DNA of 64,000 bases from Micromonospora sp. WMMD980. GTDB lineage: Bacteria; Actinomycetota; Actinomycetes; Mycobacteriales; Micromonosporaceae. Made by a program: the position numbers and the translations under genes. Below the pieces are notes generated by a model. That model was not told the DNA's origin. It did not search any database and saw only the letters and a program-made list of their open reading frames with translations. Below are positions 37,377 through 45,461 of this stretch, in pieces. Location of the stretch: assembly GCF_029626035.1 (NCBI RefSeq), contig NZ_JARUBE010000003.1, forward strand, positions 3,224,001-3,288,000. The letters run 5' to 3'. How positions within the stretch are numbered: position 1 is the stretch's first letter; each line of letters opens with the position of its first letter.

Positions 37377-38749
37377 ATGCACAGACCCCACCTCCGGCGA
37401 CGCCTCGCCGCCGGTGCGCTCGCGCTGTCCACCGCCGTCGCGACGCTCGCCCTCACCCCCTCCGCCGCCGAAGCGGTGGTGCTGCCCAACGGCTTCAAGA
37501 GCGTCGGCTACCTGCCGTCCTGGAGCGGCAGCGTCAACAGCATCCAGTACGGCAGGCTCACCCACGTCAACTACGCCTTCGTGCTGCCCAACGGCGACGG
37601 CAGCCTGCGGGCCGTGGAGAACCCCGGCAAGCTCTCCTCGCTGGTGTCCCTCGGGCACGCCGCAAACGTCAAGGTCTCCATCGCCATCGGCGGCTGGAAC
37701 GACGGCGACGACTCGGCGTTCGAGGCGCTCGCCGCCAACTCCGGCGCCCGCGGCGCGTTCGTCAACAACGTGGTCGCCTTCGTCAACCAGTACAACCTGG
37801 ACGGCGTCGACATCGACTGGGAGTATCCCGACCCGGGCGCGTCGGCCAGCAACTACACGCTGCTGATGCAACAGCTCGGCAGCGCCCTGCACAGCCGGGG
37901 CAAACTGCTCACCGCCGCCGTCGTCGCCGAGGGCTACTACGTCAACGGGGTGCCACGGCCGTCTTCGGCGCGGTCGACTGGCTGAACATCATGGCGTACG
38001 ACGGCGGCAGCCCGCACGCCAACTACGACTGGTCGATCGCCGCCGTCAACGGGTGGAAGGCGCGCGGCCTGCCCGCCGCCAAGGCGGTGCTCGGCGTGCC
38101 CTTCTACAGCCGGCCCGGCTACTACACCTACGCCGCGCTGGTCGGCATGGACCCGGCCAACGCCAACCGGGACTGCACCACGGCCGGCGGCGCCCAGCAG
38201 TGCTACAACGGCGTCCCGACGGTCAAGCGCAAGACGCAGTGGGCGATGGCCAACGCGGGCGGGATGATGAACTGGGAACTGTCCCAGGACACCACCGGCG
38301 CGACCTCGCTGGTCACCGCGATCTACGACACCGTCACCGGTGGCAGCACCCCGCCGCCGTCCGGACGCACCGGCCCGATCACCGGCATCGCCGGCAAGTG
38401 CGTCGACGTCGCCGCCGCCGGCACCGCGAACGGCACGGCGGTGCAACTCTACGGCTGCAACGGCACCGCCGCGCAGAGCTGGACCGTGGCCGGCGACGGC
38501 ACGCTGCGGGCGCTGGGCAAGTGCCTCGACGTGACGAGCGCGGGCACCGCGAACGGCACGAAGATCCAGCTCTGGGACTGCAACGGCACCGGCGCCCAGG
38601 TCTGGCAGGCCCAGGGCAACGGGACGCTGCGCAACCCGGTGTCGAACCGGTGCCTGGACGCCACCGACAACAGCTCCGCCGACGGCACCCGACTCCAGAT
38701 CTGGGACTGCTTCGGCGGCGCCAACCAGGTCTGGCGACTGCCGGCCTGA
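37377..38749 (+). pseudogene. secreted GH18 chitinase with ricin-B domain, one frameshift
   Basis: The first frame starts with a signal peptide (MHRPHLRRRLAAGALALSTA) and gives KSVGYLPSWSG, LTHVNYAFVLP, VSIAIGGWNDG and DGVDIDWEYPDPG, the GH18 catalytic D-x-x-D-x-D-x-E motif with the proton-donor Glu. It breaks after EGYYVNGV near 37953. The second frame continues at once with TAVFGAVDWLNIMAYDGG, VLGVPFYSRPGYYTY and MMNWELSQDTTGATS, then a C-terminal ricin-type beta-trefoil (KCVDVAAAGTANGTAVQLYG and two further QxW-type repeats). One base appears to be missing between GTG and ACG. If the sequence is right, translation stops before the substrate-binding half; if one base was missed, it is a normal 457-residue chitinase. 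Confidence 0.85.
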
Positions 38750-38798: not shown

Positions 38799-39557
38799 TC
38801 AGCGGCCCCGCTTGGCCCGGCAGATCTGCACCGGGTGGGCCGGCGCGCCGTCGACCGGCGCCGGATCCTCCGGCGTGGCGGCGATCCCGCCGGCCGCGAT
38901 CCGGTCCAGCGTGGCCAGCCCGGCCGCGTCCACCCGGCCGAAGACGGTGTAGTTGGGACGCAGCGCCGAGTCGCGCTGGACCAGGAAGAACTGGCTGCCG
39001 TTGGTGTCCGGCCCGGCGTTCGCCATGGCCAGCGTGCCCCGGGCGTAGAGGCGGCGGACACCGGTCGGGTCGGTCGGCGCGGGCGGCAGGTCGGTGGGCA
39101 GCTCGTCGCGGTACCGGTAACCCGGGCCACCCTCGCCGGTGCCCGACGGGTCACCGCACTGCAGCACCGTCAGCGTCGGATACGCGGTGAGCCGGTGACA
39201 GGGCGTCCGGTCGTAGAACCGGTGCCGGGTCAGGTGCAGGAAGCTCTGCACCGTGCACGGCGCCTGCTCGCGGTCCAGGATCAGCCCGATCGGCCCCTGG
39301 TTGGTGCGCAGCGTGACCCGTACCGTCCCCCGGTCCGGCGTGCGGCGCGGGTCCGGCGGCAGCGGCACCGGCCGGGCCGCCGGCTCGTCCGGCGTCGGCG
39401 TGTACGCGCACGGCCCCTTGGTCGGCGCGGGGTCGGCGGCCGGTGCCGCGGTCGCGGCGACGGCGGAGCCGGCGACCAGCGCGGCGGCGACCACCGTCAC
39501 CCCGGCGAGACGGGCCAGCAGCGGCAAGGCGGCGTGCGGTCGGGTTTCGCTCGACAC
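38799..39557 (-). CDS. exported cyclophilin-type peptidylprolyl isomerase
   Basis: From GTG 39555-39557, preceded by GGGAGGACCCAC, the product has 252 residues. The N-terminus VSSETRPHAALPLLARLAGV plus TVVAAALVAGSAVAATAA is a signal peptide or anchor. The domain from about residue 75 is a cyclophilin: GTVRVTLRTNQGPIGLILD, TVQSFLHLTRHRFYDRTPCHRL, LQCGDPSGTGEGGPGYRY, GTLAMANAGPDTNGSQFFLV and YTVFGRVDAAGLATLDRI. The catalytic Arg is replaced by His at C-H-R-L in the F-H-R-(V/I) position, with Arg following. It likely assists folding of secreted proteins. Confidence 0.85.
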   Translation of the reverse strand: MSSETRPHAALPLLARLAGVTVVAAALVAGSAVAATAAPAADPAPTKGPCAYTPTPDEPAARPVPLPPDPRRTPDRGTVRVTLRTNQGPIGLILDREQAPCTVQSFLHLTRHRFYDRTPCHRLTAYPTLTVLQCGDPSGTGEGGPGYRYRDELPTDLPPAPTDPTGVRRLYARGTLAMANAGPDTNGSQFFLVQRDSALRPNYTVFGRVDAAGLATLDRIAAGGIAATPEDPAPVDGAPAHPVQICRAKRGR

Positions 39558-39732
39558 GTGGGTCCTCCCTGGACTCGTGGTACCAGAACGACCGGAGTCT
39601 ATGGAGCCGATGAGTCGGTGTCGACGGAAAGTCGGTTGCCGGGCGTGGCGGGGTCCGGGAGGGTGTCGGTCATGACGTTCTGACGGACCGCACCCCGCCG
39701 CTTCCCGCACCCCTGCAAAGAAACGAGCGTCC

Positions 39733-40851
39733 GTGCCCGCCTCCGTCTCCGTCTTCTCCTCCCCCGGCAGCTGGATCGAGTCCGCCGCGCTCGACCAGTG
39801 CCACCAGATCGCCGCCCTCGACGGCATGACGCACGTCGCCGCCATGCCGGACCTGCACCCCGGCAAGGGCGCGCCGATCGGCGCCGCCATGGCGTCGACA
39901 GTTCTCTATCCATTCCTGGTCGGCTCCGACATCGGCTGCGGCATCGCGGTGTTCCCGATCGCGCTGCGCCGGGCCGTGCCGGAGCGGCTCGCCGCCCGGT
40001 TCCCCGACCTGGACCGGGCCCTGCACCCCGACCGGGACGCCGACGACCCGGCCTGGTCGGTGCTGACCGGCGACGTGCCGGCCGGGCACCTCGACGGCCT
40101 CGGCACGGTCGGGCGCGGCAACCACTTCGTCGAGCTGGCCCGGGTCGGCGCGATCGAGGCACCGGAACACGCCGGCCGGCTCGGGCTGGCCGCCGGCGAC
40201 CTGGTGCTGGTGGTGCACTCCGGGTCGCGCGGGCTCGGCGAGCGGATCCTGCGCGAGCACACCGAGGCGCACGGCGCCGGCCCCGCGCCCGACCCGGCCG
40301 CCTACCTGGCCCGGCACGACGACGCGGTGCGCTGGGGCTCGCTCAACCGGCGGCTGCTGGCCGCCCGGGTGGCCCACGCGCTCGGCGCCGAGCCCACCGA
40401 GCCGGTCGTCGACCAGTGCCACAACCTGGTCGAGGTCCGCGACGGGCACTACCTGCATCGCAAGGGCACCGCCCCGGGCGACGGCCGGGACGTGCTGGTC
40501 GCCGGCACCCGGGGCACACCGTCCCACCTGGTGGCCGCGCACGCCGGCGCGGCGGCGAACCACTCGGTCGCGCACGGCGCCGGCCGGAAGATGTCCCGCG
40601 CCGACGCGCTGCGCCGGGGCAAGGCCAAGCACACCGTCGAGGAGCTGCGCCGCACCCCGCTCGGGTCGCTGGTGGTGTGCGGCGACCGCCAACTGCTGTT
40701 CGAGGAGGCGCCCACCGCCTACAAGCGCATCGAGCAGGTGGTCGGGGACCTGGTCGCGCACGACCTGGCCACCCCGGTCACCACCACGGTGCCGCTGGTC
40801 ACCTACAAGACGCCGGACGTCGCGGCGGGCCGCCGGCGGGGGCGACGATGA
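39733..40851 (+). CDS. rtcB: RtcB-family RNA ligase of the prfH-linked type (RtcB2-like)
   Basis: The 372-residue protein has the RtcB metal and nucleotide sites: AAMPDLHPGKGAPIGAAMAS, VGSDIGCGIAVFP (Asp66, Cys69), GTVGRGNHFVEL, VLVVHSGSRGLGE, QCHNLVEVRDGHYLHRKGTAP and NHSVAHGAGRKMSR with His281 as the guanylylated residue. RtcB joins 2',3'-cyclic phosphate or 3'-phosphate ends to 5'-OH ends with GTP and manganese. It is about 100 residues shorter than housekeeping RtcB, as in RtcB proteins that accompany PrfH and reseal cleaved 16S rRNA. GTG 39733 starts the gene; its stop overlaps prfH (ATGA). This linkage, rather than tRNA repair, defines the likely job. Confidence 0.9.
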   Translation: MPASVSVFSSPGSWIESAALDQCHQIAALDGMTHVAAMPDLHPGKGAPIGAAMASTVLYPFLVGSDIGCGIAVFPIALRRAVPERLAARFPDLDRALHPDRDADDPAWSVLTGDVPAGHLDGLGTVGRGNHFVELARVGAIEAPEHAGRLGLAAGDLVLVVHSGSRGLGERILREHTEAHGAGPAPDPAAYLARHDDAVRWGSLNRRLLAARVAHALGAEPTEPVVDQCHNLVEVRDGHYLHRKGTAPGDGRDVLVAGTRGTPSHLVAAHAGAAANHSVAHGAGRKMSRADALRRGKAKHTVEELRRTPLGSLVVCGDRQLLFEEAPTAYKRIEQVVGDLVAHDLATPVTTTVPLVTYKTPDVAAGRRRGRR

Positions 40852-41453
40852 CGGACCTGTTCCTGACCGCCGGGTGCGGGCCGCAGGAGTGCGCCTGGGC
40901 GCTGGGCCGGCTGCTGCCGCGCCTGGAGGCCGACGCCGCCCGTCGCGGCCTGCGCGCCGTTCGGGTCGAGACGGTGCCCGGCGAACGTCCGGGCACCTAC
41001 CGGTCGGCGCTCGTCCGGATCACCGGTACGGGCGCGGAGGAGTTCGCCGGCGGCTGGACCGGCACGCTCTGCTGGCAGGCGGCCAGCCCCTACCGGCCGG
41101 GCCACGGGCGGAAGAACTGGTACGTCACCGCCCGGCCGCACCGGACCGACGTGGTGGACACCCCGTTCCACGAGGCCGACGTCGAGATGGTGCCGTGCCG
41201 CACCGGCGGGCCGGGCGGTCAGCACCGGAACAAGGCCAGCACCGCCGTCCGAGCCACCCACCGTCCGCCCGGCCTGACCGTGGTGGTGGACACCGAACGG
41301 CACCTGCACCTCAACCGCCGGATCGCCGTCGACCTGCTGCGCCGGCGGGTCGCCGAGGGCGACGAGGCGGCCCGACGCGCCGGCACGACGGCGCGCTGGC
41401 GGATTCACGACGAGCTGGTCCGCGGCGACCCGGTCCGGGTGGAACGGCCGTGA
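40848..41453 (+). CDS. prfH: peptide chain release factor homolog PrfH
   Basis: The 201-residue protein is a short class-I release factor homolog. The central RTGGPGGQHRNKASTAVRATH contains GGQ (residues 123-125), which triggers peptidyl-tRNA hydrolysis. The N-terminal domain, LFLTAGCGPQECAWALGRLL and onward, differs from RF1/RF2 and lacks their codon-recognition PxT or SPF loop, as in PrfH. PrfH is reported to release peptides from ribosomes whose decoding centre was cut in 16S rRNA so that RtcB2 can repair it. Starts overlap on both sides (ATGA with rtcB, GTGA with the phosphotransferase gene), giving a tightly coupled three-gene operon. Confidence 0.9.
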   Translation: MTDLFLTAGCGPQECAWALGRLLPRLEADAARRGLRAVRVETVPGERPGTYRSALVRITGTGAEEFAGGWTGTLCWQAASPYRPGHGRKNWYVTARPHRTDVVDTPFHEADVEMVPCRTGGPGGQHRNKASTAVRATHRPPGLTVVVDTERHLHLNRRIAVDLLRRRVAEGDEAARRAGTTARWRIHDELVRGDPVRVERP

Positions 41454-42424
41454 CGCGTACGTTCCTGCGGCCGGACGACGTCCGCGACCTGGTGCGCGAC
41501 CGGCTCGGCACGGACCGGCGGGTCACCACGCTGGACCGACTGACCGGCGGCACCAGCAAGGGCGTCTACCGGATCACGCTCGACGACGGCACGACGGTGA
41601 TCCTCTACGTCTGGTCGGCGGAGGAGAACTACTGGCCGGCGTCGGCGACGGTCCCGGACGATCCGTTCACCGAGGCGTCGGGCGCGGATGTGTTCGCCAC
41701 CAACCACGCCGCGCTCACCGCCGCCGGGGTACGCGTGCCGCACCTGATCGCCCGCGAGCCCGCCGGCCGCCACCTGGACGCCGACGTCGCGCTGGTGGAG
41801 GACGCCGGCGGGGTGACGCTGGAGGCGTTGCTGACCCGCGACCCCGAGCGGGCGGCCGAGCCGCTGGCCCGGCTCGGGGACGCGCTACGGCGGATGCACA
41901 CCACGGTCGGCGGGCGTTACGGCCGGCTCGCCGACGTCGCCCGGGGCACCACACCGGCCCGGCCCGCCGAGGACGTGGTCCTGGACCGCGCGCTCGGGCA
42001 CCTCGCCGCCGCGGCGGCCCGGGACCCCCGACCGGCCGCCGCGCGGGACCGGATCGCCGTCCACCTGCGCGGGCTGCGCGATCGGGTGTCGCCGCGCCGG
42101 GCGTACGCGCTGGTGCACGGCGAACTGGGCCCGGACCACGTCCTCGTCACCCCGGCCGGTGAGCCGGTGATGATCGACTTCGAGGGCCTGACCTGGTTCG
42201 ACGTCGAGTGGGAGCACGTCTGGCTCCGGCTGCGCTTCGGCGACGACTACCCGGCGCTGCGTCCGGTCCCGCTCGACGCCGACCGGCTGGAGTTCTACCG
42301 GTACGCCCAGGTGCTGTCGTTGATCGAGGGTCCACTGCGGATCGCCGGGACCGACTTCCCGGACCGGCGGTGGATGCTCGACCTGGCCGAGCGGAACATC
42401 GCCGAGGCGCTCGCCGTGCTCTGA
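41450..42424 (+). CDS. aminoglycoside-phosphotransferase-like kinase in the rtcB-prfH operon
   Basis: The 324-residue product belongs to the APH/choline-kinase fold. It shows a nucleotide-binding hairpin (LTGGTSKGVYRITLDDGTTV), a long insertion, the catalytic-loop motif YALVHGELGPDHVLVT (H-G-(D/E)-x-x-x-x-N-like, with Glu replacing Asp and His replacing Asn) and VMIDFEGLTWFDVEWEHVWL (the D-F-(E/D) metal-binding motif). The replacement of the catalytic Asp may mean altered or weak kinase activity. Its GTG overlaps the prfH stop, so it is made with RtcB and PrfH. Many relatives phosphorylate aminoglycosides or small metabolites; here a link to ribosome damage is possible but unproven. Confidence 0.8.
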   Translation: MTRTFLRPDDVRDLVRDRLGTDRRVTTLDRLTGGTSKGVYRITLDDGTTVILYVWSAEENYWPASATVPDDPFTEASGADVFATNHAALTAAGVRVPHLIAREPAGRHLDADVALVEDAGGVTLEALLTRDPERAAEPLARLGDALRRMHTTVGGRYGRLADVARGTTPARPAEDVVLDRALGHLAAAAARDPRPAAARDRIAVHLRGLRDRVSPRRAYALVHGELGPDHVLVTPAGEPVMIDFEGLTWFDVEWEHVWLRLRFGDDYPALRPVPLDADRLEFYRYAQVLSLIEGPLRIAGTDFPDRRWMLDLAERNIAEALAVL

Positions 42425-42726
42425 GTCGCTCCGACGCTCACGCCCGGCGACTTGGATGTCACGGTGCCGTCTCATTTCGCAACAATGAACGCCCGATGAA
42501 CGGTTCGCCAATTGACGGCCGGGCGGCCCGGTCATCGAATGTCGACGTGGCGCGCCGTGCCGACGCTGACCGGTTGCTCGCCGACGGCGGCGGACGCGGC
42601 TGACCGCGGACGGAGGGCGCGCCGAGCCTCCTCCCGGCCCGGCCCGATCCGGCTCGTCGACGGAAGGCGGATACGGTGGGCGCGGCGCGGGCGGTCCGGT
42701 CCCGACGCGACGAGGGAGGGAGCCGG
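42425..42726. other. intergenic region without recognised gene
   Basis: The first half is AT-richer (CATTTCGCAACAATGAACGC and GCCAATTGACG around 42470-42520) and may carry a promoter, but no pair of hexamers with proper spacing is convincing. A 35-codon frame from ATG 42496 has no ribosome binding site and no homology that I recognise. The end carries GGGAGGGAG, the ribosome binding site for the DUF72 gene. Confidence 0.5.
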
Positions 42727-43578
42727 ATGCGCCTGCACGTGGGGTGCGCGATGTGGACCCACCGGTCCTGGCCGGGGCGTTTCCTGCCGCACCCGTTGCC
42801 GGCCCACGAACGGTTGCGCGCGTACGCCGGCTGGTGCGACGCGGTGGAGGGCAACACCACGTTCTACGCGACGCCGGCCCGGGAGACCGTGGCGTCCTGG
42901 GCGGAGCAGACCGACCCCGACTTCCGCTTCCTGGCGAAGCTGCCGAAGGTAATCACGCACGAGCGCCGGCTCACCGGCGGCGAGGCGGAGCTGCGGGCGT
43001 TCCTGCACGCGATGGAACCGCTCGGGCCCCGGGCGGACACCCTCTGGGTGCAGTTGCCCGGCTCGTTCGGCCCGGGTGACGTGCCCGACCTCGACCGGTT
43101 CCTCCGCGCCCTGCCCACCGACCACAGGTACGCCGTCGAGGTCCGCCACCCGGCGTTCCTCACCGACGCCGGCGCGGCCCGCACGTTGGCGCGGACCCTC
43201 GACCGGGCCGGCGCGGAGTGGGTGCCGTTCGACACCACCGTGTTCTTCCGCACGCCGCCGACCAGCGACGCGGAACGAGAGGCGTGGACGCGCAAGCCGC
43301 GCCTGCCGTCGCGTACCGAGGCGCTGACCGACCGGCCGGTGGTGCGCTACCTCGGCCGTGACGACCCGGCCGCCACGGTCGAGGGCTGGCAACCGTGGCT
43401 GGACGTGGTCACCGGCTGGCTGCGCGAGGGCCGCTCACCGACCGTGTTCGTGCACACCCCGGACAACGCGGACGCCCCCGACCTGGCCCGACGCTTCCAC
43501 GACCAGGTCCGTGCCCGCCTGCCCGAGTTGGCGCCGCTGCCCGAGCCGACGCCGGTCGGCCCGGCCACGCTCTTCTGA
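42727..43578 (+). CDS. DUF72 family protein (second copy)
   Basis: The 283-residue product begins MRLHVGCAMWTHRSWPGRFL and carries RLRAYAGWCDAVEGNTTFYA, FRFLAKLPKVITHERRL, LWVQLPGSFGPGDVPDLDRF, YAVEVRHPAF and VVRYLGRDDP, the marks of DUF72. It is not a recent duplicate of the protein at 19977-20867: core motifs agree but lengths and surroundings differ. GGGAGGGAG stands before ATG 42727. The reaction is unknown. A terminator follows. Confidence 0.85.
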   Translation: MRLHVGCAMWTHRSWPGRFLPHPLPAHERLRAYAGWCDAVEGNTTFYATPARETVASWAEQTDPDFRFLAKLPKVITHERRLTGGEAELRAFLHAMEPLGPRADTLWVQLPGSFGPGDVPDLDRFLRALPTDHRYAVEVRHPAFLTDAGAARTLARTLDRAGAEWVPFDTTVFFRTPPTSDAEREAWTRKPRLPSRTEALTDRPVVRYLGRDDPAATVEGWQPWLDVVTGWLREGRSPTVFVHTPDNADAPDLARRFHDQVRARLPELAPLPEPTPVGPATLF

Positions 43579-43660: not shown

Positions 43661-45079
43661 TCAGGCCGGGGTGAGCGGCAGCAGCACCACGAACCGGGTG
43701 TCGCCGGGCTCGGACCGCACCCGGATGTCGCCGTGGTGCTTGTTGACCACGATCCGGTACGAGATGTCCAGCCCGAGGCCGGTGCCCTCGCCCACCGCCT
43801 TGGTGGTGAAGAACGGCTCGAAGATGCGCGGCCGCACCTCGGGCGGGATGCCCGGACCGGTGTCGCGGATCTCGACGGTCAGGCGGTCGTCGGTGCGCCC
43901 GGTGCGGACCGTCAGCGTGCCGTCGCCGGCCATCGCGGCGAGCGCGTTGTCGATCAGGTTGGTCCAGACCTGGTTGAGTTCGGCCGCGTACGCCGGGACG
44001 GCGGGCAGGCTCCGGTCGTACTCCTTCACCACCCGGACGCCGGCCGGGATCTTCGCCTGGAGCATGACCAGCGTGGCGTCGAGCAGGTCGTGCACGTCCA
44101 CCGTCTGGTAGGGCGCCCGGTCCAGTTGGGAGTACTGCTTCGCGGCGCCGACCAGCCCGGAGACCCGGGTGACCGCGTCGTCGATCTCACCCATCAGCAG
44201 CTCGGTGTCGATGGTGTAGGTGATCCAGTGCACCGCCGACTCCAGGTCGTCGCCGCCGACCGCCGCGTCGACCTGGGCGAGCCAGCCGCTGTCGAGGCCG
44301 CCGGCCACGAGCGTCGGCGCCAGCTCCCAGGCTCCCCGTACCCCGTGCTCCTCCAGCCAGTCGCCCAGCTCGTCCTCGGCGTCGCTGGCCGCCAGCGGCG
44401 AGAGCGCGGTGGCCGCGGCGGCCCGCTTCACCGCTTCCTCCTGCAACGCGACGAGGTCGTGCAGCCGCCGCCCGTCGAGCCGGCCGTCGGCGATCATGGC
44501 GAGCTTGTGCCGCATCTTCGCGACCCGCCCACGCAACGCCGAGGTGGCCCGGACGGCGGCCGCCGCCGGGTTGTTCAGCTCGTGGGTGAGCCCGGCCGAG
44601 AGCGCGCCCAGCGCCAGCAGCCGTTCCCGCTCGCCGACGATGGTCTGCGTGTTGCGCATCCCGATGAACAGGCCCTCCAGCAGGTGGGTGGCCATCGGGA
44701 ACCAGCCGCGCATGGCCGCCGCGATGATCTCCGCGGGCAGGGCGAACACCGCGGCGTCGGTGACCGCGCGCAGGCTGTTGCGGTAACGCTGCTCGGCCGG
44801 GTCACCGAGGTACGCCTGCATGGCGCCGCCGTAGACGCCACGCTGAGCCGTCCGGCTCACCTCCACCTCGTCGCCCTGGACCCGCTGGTGCATCGCCACC
44901 GTGCCGTCGAGCAGCACGAAGAAGCAGCTCGCCGGCTCGCCCTCGACGTAGACCGCCTCGCCGGCGCGACGTCGCTCCACCCGGCCGTGCTCGGCCAGGT
45001 GGGCGAGCTGCTCCGGGGTGAGCGACTCGAAGAGGAAGAGCTGCCGCAGCTCGTCCGGGGTGAGCCGGTCGCCGGTCAT
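43661..45079 (-). CDS. histidine kinase with N-terminal cyclic-nucleotide-binding domain
   Basis: The 472-residue soluble protein starts with a cNMP-binding fold (LFLFESLTPEQLAHLAEHGR, GEAVYVEGEPASCFFVLLDG, VEVSRTAQRGVYGGAM). From residue 150 comes LLALGALSAGLTHELNNPAA, the H-box with the phosphorylated His, then ELNQVWTNLIDNALAAM (N-box), RDTGPGIPPEVRPRIFEPFF (G1/F) and GTGLGLDISYRIV (G2). No membrane span is seen. GGAGG precedes ATG 45079. Its start overlaps the stop of a thioredoxin-reductase-like remnant (45076-45079); such kinases commonly stand beside cNMP/thioredoxin-reductase-type genes, so a redox role is plausible. No response regulator gene is adjacent. Confidence 0.85.
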   Translation of the reverse strand: MTGDRLTPDELRQLFLFESLTPEQLAHLAEHGRVERRRAGEAVYVEGEPASCFFVLLDGTVAMHQRVQGDEVEVSRTAQRGVYGGAMQAYLGDPAEQRYRNSLRAVTDAAVFALPAEIIAAAMRGWFPMATHLLEGLFIGMRNTQTIVGERERLLALGALSAGLTHELNNPAAAAVRATSALRGRVAKMRHKLAMIADGRLDGRRLHDLVALQEEAVKRAAAATALSPLAASDAEDELGDWLEEHGVRGAWELAPTLVAGGLDSGWLAQVDAAVGGDDLESAVHWITYTIDTELLMGEIDDAVTRVSGLVGAAKQYSQLDRAPYQTVDVHDLLDATLVMLQAKIPAGVRVVKEYDRSLPAVPAYAAELNQVWTNLIDNALAAMAGDGTLTVRTGRTDDRLTVEIRDTGPGIPPEVRPRIFEPFFTTKAVGEGTGLGLDISYRIVVNKHHGDIRVRSEPGDTRFVVLLPLTPA

Positions 45080-45461
45080 TGGGCCTCCAGGTATCGGTGC
45101 ACGAGCGAGACCGCCATCGCGCCCTCCCCCACCGCCGAGGCCACCCGCTTCACCGAGTCGGCCCGCACGTCGCCGGCCGCGAACACGCCCGGTATGCTGG
45201 ACTCCAGGTGGTAGGGATCGCGGGGCAGGGACCAACCGGCCGGCCGGCGCCCGCCGCGGGTCAGGTCCGGCCCGGTCAGCACGAAACCCCGACGGTCCCG
45301 GACGACCGCGCCGTCGAGCCAGTCGGTGTGCGGCTCCGCGCCGATGAACACGAACAGCCACGAGGTGTCGACGTCGCGCGTCTCGCCGGTGCGCATGTCC
45401 CGCAGCGTCACCCGCTCCAGGTGCTCCTGCCCGGCGCCGCCGACCACCTCGGTTCGTGGTG
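45076..45461 (-). pseudogene. C-terminal fragment of a thioredoxin-reductase-like FAD oxidoreductase
   Basis: Only about the last 125 residues remain: [73 protein letters not shown] and VKRVASAVGEGAMAVSLVHR. G-V-F-A-A-G-D-V is the FAD-binding C-terminal motif of the thioredoxin reductase family. The N-terminal FAD domain, the CxxC/NADPH part and any start codon are missing. At about 45460 the sequence changes directly into a NIT-HAMP kinase gene in another frame, so a deletion has joined the two. The reading frame remains open upstream only as a non-coding shadow. Confidence 0.75.

Follow-up and report, generated by a model that had tools for sequence, protein, structure and literature searches.

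Does a gene whose start codon overlaps the end of a ribosome-repair operon take part in the repair? The question is raised by a locus in a 64,000-nucleotide stretch of Micromonospora sp. WMMD980 DNA (contig NZ_JARUBE010000003.1, positions 3,224,001 to 3,288,000; hereafter the window, meaning the whole stretch analysed), part of a 6.83 Mb genome (G000, C3:3224001-3288000). Here three genes follow one another on the forward strand: rtcB, for an RNA ligase homologue; prfH, for peptide chain release factor H; and a third, for a protein with the predicted fold of the aminoglycoside phosphotransferases (APH). An earlier note, made from the sequence alone, had suggested that the third protein adds a further layer to ribosome repair. 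The evidence points to another reading: probably, the third gene has been inserted behind the prfH of an RtcB2-PrfH-type pair, is translated with that pair, and encodes a small-molecule kinase acting outside RNA repair.

In Escherichia coli, when ribosomes have been cut in their decoding centre, PrfH frees the peptide and RtcB2 seals the rRNA again; together the two protect against colicin E3, as set out in passages of PMC9223846. That the genes of the pair lie close together is noted in PMC1586002.

A repair pair of known type, with a third gene

The window's rtcB (39733..40851, + strand; 372 amino acids) passes both models for release-factor-associated RtcB (NF007153, 464.5 bits; TIGR03073, 299.5 bits), and prfH (40848..41453, +; 201 amino acids) passes TIGR03072 with 183.6 bits, so that both identities proposed in the earlier note hold against curated NCBIfam cut-offs. 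PrfH carries the GGQ motif, in the form GGPGGQ, and its nearest solved chains are those of PrfH itself (7sa4, E 5e-35; 9mor, E 2e-30). A second, canonical RtcB is encoded in the same genome at C3:1806854-1807966, 1.46 Mb from the pair, as expected for a pair of the RtcB2 type. Judged by sequence, rtcB and prfH are a pair of the known RtcB2-PrfH rescue and resealing type.

Both overlaps described in the note are present: rtcB and prfH share ATGA (40848..40851, +), and prfH and the third gene (41450..42424, +; 324 amino acids) share GTGA (41450..41453, +). The first is general, with a spacing of -4 in all 21 loci where both genes were called (L017 and L063 being the same contig). Genes in these loci were called with a codon-usage script of our own, whose calls of small genes and of starts are approximate; the rtcB of L073 escaped it but is found by tblastn. 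The second overlap proved to be a local feature.

Linkage to prfH is confined to one Micromonospora clade

Among 160 Micromonospora genomes, prfH is found in 105 (103 of these above the family cut-off) and the third-gene family in 48, partial hits included. The two adjoin in six genomes, as judged by comparing coordinates by eye: the window's and G101, G047, G092, G087 and G059. Five of the linked copies are intact. In the sixth (G059, the same record as L017, M. maritima), a deletion of about 643 bp has taken most of the third gene and left rtcB-prfH in place. The other 99 of the 105 prfH-bearing genomes have no third gene behind prfH, and the six that do fall within one clade, so the gene does not recur at this position across lineages.

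Two wider samples extend the survey of actinobacterial prfH neighbourhoods that the note had proposed: 300 genomes of the family, in which some 106 genus genomes are counted again and 194 lie outside the genus, and 394 genomes of the class. Among the matches listed for these, no family member outside the genus stands beside prfH on the same strand. The class sample has the third-gene family in 20 genomes and prfH in four, and both in G000 and G092 only; none of the 18 carriers outside the genus has prfH. The gene is thus independent of prfH, but this says little about avoidance, since prfH is rare there. That prfH is common in Micromonospora (105/160) and rare in the class sample (4/394, at a stricter E-value) is a pattern in its own right.

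Where it is not linked, the third gene sits in many different neighbourhoods (15 named family loci, of 16 among the matches listed, and 20 genus loci; these 35 mapped loci include some genomes twice, and L016 ends at a contig edge). One copy, in M. endophytica (L003 and L085, a single genome), overlaps an unrelated upstream gene by four bases; tight overlaps of this gene thus occur with genes other than prfH. A separate observation concerns G328, the single further case within 2 kb among the matches listed for the 300-genome family sample: there (L102, G328:C10:112000-128000) a 49% identical family member and prfH lie on opposite strands, 1.8 kb apart and separated by a called gene. This closeness is apparently independent of the linkage described above; by a rough estimate, about 0.03 such cases would be expected by chance in 71 genomes.

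The idea of a conserved repair component was therefore rejected: in the genomes searched, the third gene stands behind prfH in one clade only, sister loci keep rtcB-prfH without it, and the further repair layer proposed in the note finds no support in this distribution.

Probable insertion behind prfH

Twenty prfH loci from the 105 genomes were inspected along with the window. Four have an intact third gene, one has the deleted copy, and 15 have none. Four of the loci lacking it (L065, L068, L069, L074) show the same surroundings as the window, in the order cyclophilin-rtcB-prfH-DUF72, and ten inspected loci with no linked copy stand in other surroundings. The flanks, which keep their positions whether or not a locus has the third gene, are in the window a cyclophilin-type peptidyl-prolyl isomerase gene (38799..39557, - strand; PF00160 on the longer frame 38799-39890) and a gene for a DUF72 protein (42727..43578, +; PF01904 on the longer frame from 42676). 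Two of the four genomes with such an empty locus (G008, G034) carry a family member elsewhere.

In L065, L068 and L069, the DNA starting three bases past the prfH stop realigns with the window at offset 1187 (42640), at 73-76% identity over 72-86 columns (E 3e-4 to 2e-7). This places about 1.2 kb of extra DNA in the window exactly behind prfH, and the segment inserted would be 41454..42639 (+), comprising the third gene and about 215 bp 3' of it. L074 has no match to the window here; it matches L063 (E 4e-24). All six linked loci have the identical junction ...CCGTGA. The syntenic empty loci end prfH with CCCTGA (three) or CCGTAG (one), and have no GTGA overlap.

Two trees bear on the origin of the linkage. 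The intact linked third genes form one clade (99/98) with six database proteins, one of which is nearly identical to the L060 copy; members shorter than 301 amino acids (L009, L013, L016) and the deleted copy were left out of this tree. In the rtcB tree, linked and empty loci together form one clade (99/99). As far as seen the linkage arose once, and from these sequences the likely direction is insertion in the linked clade rather than loss in its sisters.

What lies behind prfH differs in other respects as well: L068 and L069 have two other small genes (105-112 and 209 amino acids) between prfH and the DUF72 gene. L061 and L063 have, in the gap between the third gene and the DUF72 gene, an extra 330-amino-acid protein with a GGDEF-type end, recognized by eye, and a small gene on the opposite strand.

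A widespread family with a conserved, non-canonical active site

The AlphaFold2 model of the third protein is confident (mean predicted local distance difference test, pLDDT, 93.8) and bears out the APH fold named in the note. Its matches in the PDB include fructosamine-3-kinase, APH(4), APH(9), APH(2''), choline and macrolide kinases, with scores that span about 2 Z units, and most of the 50 matches shown for the fold are antibiotic kinases. By sequence, ComG is the closest solved protein (8agy; E 5e-7, residues 88-246). Reading a substrate from the fold was ruled out: aminoglycoside, fructosamine, choline, steroid and macrolide kinases score alike.

At the thresholds used, the third protein reached no NCBIfam, PADLOC or Pfam APH family. 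PF01636 does not match the window protein, and matches 12 of 27 aligned family members at E<=0.1 (best 6.7e-17). The family has at least 988 homologues, that many of the 7997 candidates scored reaching E<=0.001. Its members were met in Micromonosporaceae, Streptosporangiaceae, Streptomycetaceae and other groups.

The loop HGELGPDHVLV (42116..42148, +) replaces the HxD..N catalytic loop, with Glu for Asp and His for Asn. In an alignment of the best 120 of the 988 homologues, neither the catalytic Asp nor the Asn of the HxDxxxxN pattern is found; Glu225 and His230 replace them in 120/120, and in 40/40 members from the mapped loci. H223, D243 and E245 are likewise invariant in 120/120, and D243 is present with E225 and H230 in all 40 locus members, including distant ones about 45-50% identical. 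Other motif letters vary (HGELCAEH in L096 and L097, for example). The note had called this loop unusual: its substitutions are real, but they belong to the whole family rather than to the window copy, of which the odd loop was considered and rejected as a hallmark.

The departures extend beyond the loop. The family (P0005-P0123) has an invariant Lys in its glycine-rich loop (K37, 120/120) and a Tyr (Y53, 120/120) at the place of the Lys or Arg on strand beta3, and in a low-identity alignment it has no Glu at the helix C place. Over 17 active-site and landmark positions checked in the 120 homologues, 13 are invariant and four vary in one to five rows. Seven APH-fold proteins of the same genome (those of its 20 PF01636 hits whose full loop was caught by the pattern) have HxD, Asn and the helix C Glu, and their third strand carries Arg or Lys, again in a low-identity alignment. 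By sequence conservation, the family's site belongs either to a working kinase whose residues have moved or to a kinase fold with other chemistry. The string HGELGP was not found in print in the literature searched, and the papers listed on macrolide-kinase motifs yielded nothing of use.

Possible functions of the third gene

By analogy with E. coli, once a ribosome had been cut in its decoding centre, PrfH would release the stalled peptide and RtcB2 would then reseal the 16S rRNA. The third gene, inserted directly behind prfH in one Micromonospora lineage, would share the operon's expression through a putative translational coupling, and its product, if a kinase, would phosphorylate a small molecule such as a ribosome-targeting antibiotic. 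It would be an accessory that may help under a similar attack, and repair would presumably not need it. An antibiotic seems more likely as substrate than a housekeeping metabolite, to judge from the gene's sporadic distribution, its changing neighbourhoods and the match to ComG.

Several observations weigh against placing an inserted kinase outside RNA repair. The first group concerns function. The GTGA overlap is kept in 6/6 linked loci, and for the five linked copies that are intact the ratio of nonsynonymous to synonymous substitution rates (dN/dS) is 0.25-0.48, with a median of 0.33; for comparison, it is 0.17-0.27 for six unlinked copies, with medians of 0.15 for rtcB and 0.33 for prfH. 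Linked copies are thus constrained, somewhat more loosely than unlinked ones. A dN/dS well below 1 and a kept overlap indicate that the linkage is tolerated and that the gene looks functional. With no Lys/Arg on beta3 and with an HxE loop, kinase catalysis by the protein is putative. At eight positions, nine near copies (the context of some of which was seen) are set apart almost consistently from the 111 others; none of these positions is among the 17 active-site and landmark places, and a substrate shift in the linked clade is possible.

The second group concerns association with prfH beyond direct linkage. Within the genus, prfH is present in 40/48 carriers of the family and 65/112 non-carriers (odds ratio 3.6, p 0.002), and with the six linked genomes set aside, in 34/42 and 65/112 (p 0.008). 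In the 194 family-sample genomes outside the genus, the counts are 37/62 and 39/132 (odds ratio 3.5, p 8e-5). These tests ignore relatedness, having no phylogenetic correction, and prfH was counted at E<=1e-40 in the family sample, whose listed prfH matches ran down to weak ones, and at 1e-30 in the genus.

The third group concerns history. On the rtcB tree the linked label needs two changes at best fit, one also being possible, so that the gene may instead have been inserted earlier and then lost from the empty sisters. The sequence that resumes 3' of the insertion is short. A search for a trace of the donor locus in the window's genome, by way of a neighbour of the unlinked G008 copy, found none, the best match being 73% identical and not syntenic. 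The note had allowed that linkage in this strain only, or an ordinary kinase placed here by chance, would count against its proposal. Linkage limited to one clade comes most of the way to that; pure accident is opposed by the kept overlap, the dN/dS values and the co-occurrence.

One alternative, a stronger form of the preferred reading and not exclusive with it, may be entertained tentatively: a dedicated resistance kinase was recruited beside the repair pair because both respond to attack on the ribosome, the kinase disarming a drug and the pair repairing the ribosome. Resistance genes often occupy varied neighbourhoods, as this gene does; antibiotic kinases dominate the fold matches shown, and ComG, the nearest solved sequence, is a self-resistance kinase. 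If the co-occurrence with prfH holds, the family and prfH may answer a common pressure, which would favour such recruitment. However, fructosamine-3-kinase and choline kinase score equally, so that the fold names no substrate, and the linkage arose, as far as seen, just once. A more specific form, in which a new, widespread actinobacterial class of APH-fold enzymes with a rebuilt site (HGE...H, Tyr for the beta3 Lys/Arg, and an invariant glycine-loop Lys that may take over the latter's role, as in WNK kinases) disarms a ribosome-targeting compound and in one Micromonospora clade has been wired through the start/stop overlap into an RtcB2-PrfH operon for disarm-and-repair, is rather improbable.

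The third protein might instead be a pseudokinase, or a kinase fold with other chemistry, inserted by chance and functionally unrelated to the pair. The Tyr at the beta3 Arg/Lys place, the lack of a helix C Glu, the HxE loop and the His for the second metal ligand would all suit this, as would the usual residues kept by the seven APH-fold proteins of the same genome (with the low identity of that alignment in mind). But the invariance of K37, Y53, E225, H230, D243 and E245 in 120/120 homologues speaks for some chemistry, and macrolide kinases too have His in place of this Asn; this reading is unlikely.

Least probable of all, and very doubtful, is a working repair part, which would aid RtcB2-PrfH by phosphorylating RNA ends, some component of the ribosome or a signal: the overlapping operon of the six linked loci, the low dN/dS, the co-occurrence with prfH and the general description of accessory genes around RFH-RtcB (passages of PMC6514570) would fit it, but 99/105 prfH-bearing genus genomes have no third gene behind prfH, 18/18 class-sample carriers outside the genus have no prfH, one linked genome lost most of the third gene and kept rtcB-prfH, linked and unlinked copies share their active-site residues, and RNA-end phosphorylation in particular is unlikely because RtcB needs a 5'-OH end, joining it to a 2',3'-cyclic phosphate (passages of PMC9223846), so that a 5'-end kinase would oppose it.

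A small-molecule kinase that has joined the operon by insertion thus remains the probable reading. The locus shows how a known repair pair can gain an overlapping third gene in one lineage, and corrects the use of a start/stop overlap as proof of a shared mechanism. Should the third protein prove to inactivate an antibiotic that targets the ribosome, the co-occurrence of its family with prfH would join two layers of defence against attacks on the ribosome. The lasting question is the third protein's family itself, widespread and with a kinase site that is conserved yet non-canonical.

Other features of the window and genome

Neither PF09000 (the colicin-E3-type cytotoxic domain) nor PF07091 (the 16S methyltransferase of aminoglycoside producers) has a match in the window's own genome, but neither has one in the control genomes, so that these results do not show absence. 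Two genes near the operon differ from their counterparts in relatives. At 37377-38749, a gene that by eye is chitinase-like with a ricin-type end is split into two frames of 202 and 252 amino acids; it is a single frame of 456-458 amino acids in L060, L062, L065 and L068, and is split in L069 (162 and 294 amino acids). At 45076-45447 lies the 123-amino-acid end of a gene that by eye is reductase-like, where linked relatives have a gene of 555-728 amino acids; a sensor gene with NIT and HAMP domains stands beside this remnant.

Comparison with known systems

APH(4)-Ia, APH(9)-Ia, APH(2'') and the fructosamine-3-kinases, which have the canonical HxD..N loop, are 10-20% identical to the third protein. 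ComG, which phosphorylates and so inactivates the peptide antibiotic corramycin (passages of PMC10996006), is 21% identical in the fold alignment. According to the same source it has DFE for DFG, and the third protein has D-x-E; its loop is HGD..N, whereas that of the third-gene family is HGE..H, and ComG belongs to a biosynthetic cluster, unlike the third gene.

In the literature searched, none of the papers listed joins prfH with "aminoglycoside phosphotransferase", or Micromonospora with RtcB, and the terms "third gene" and "kinase" were not found in passages of the 2006 description of the pair (PMC1586002). The RFH-RtcB core is described as gaining accessory genes in passages of Burroughs and Aravind (2019; PMC6514570), among them those for a TPR protein, a Pol-beta nucleotidyltransferase, a zinc-ribbon protein with a charged helix and another charged helical protein. 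The accessory in the window differs from these in having an APH fold, and the words "kinase" and "phosphotransferase" are absent from that paper's main text. The arrangement looks like a clade-limited variant, not found in print, of this known kind of accessory-gene accretion. Compared with the RtcB2-PrfH operon of the E. coli ATCC25922 type, the window has the same gene order, with both families above their curated cut-offs; it differs in its third overlapping gene, and in that the Micromonospora pair is known from sequence alone.

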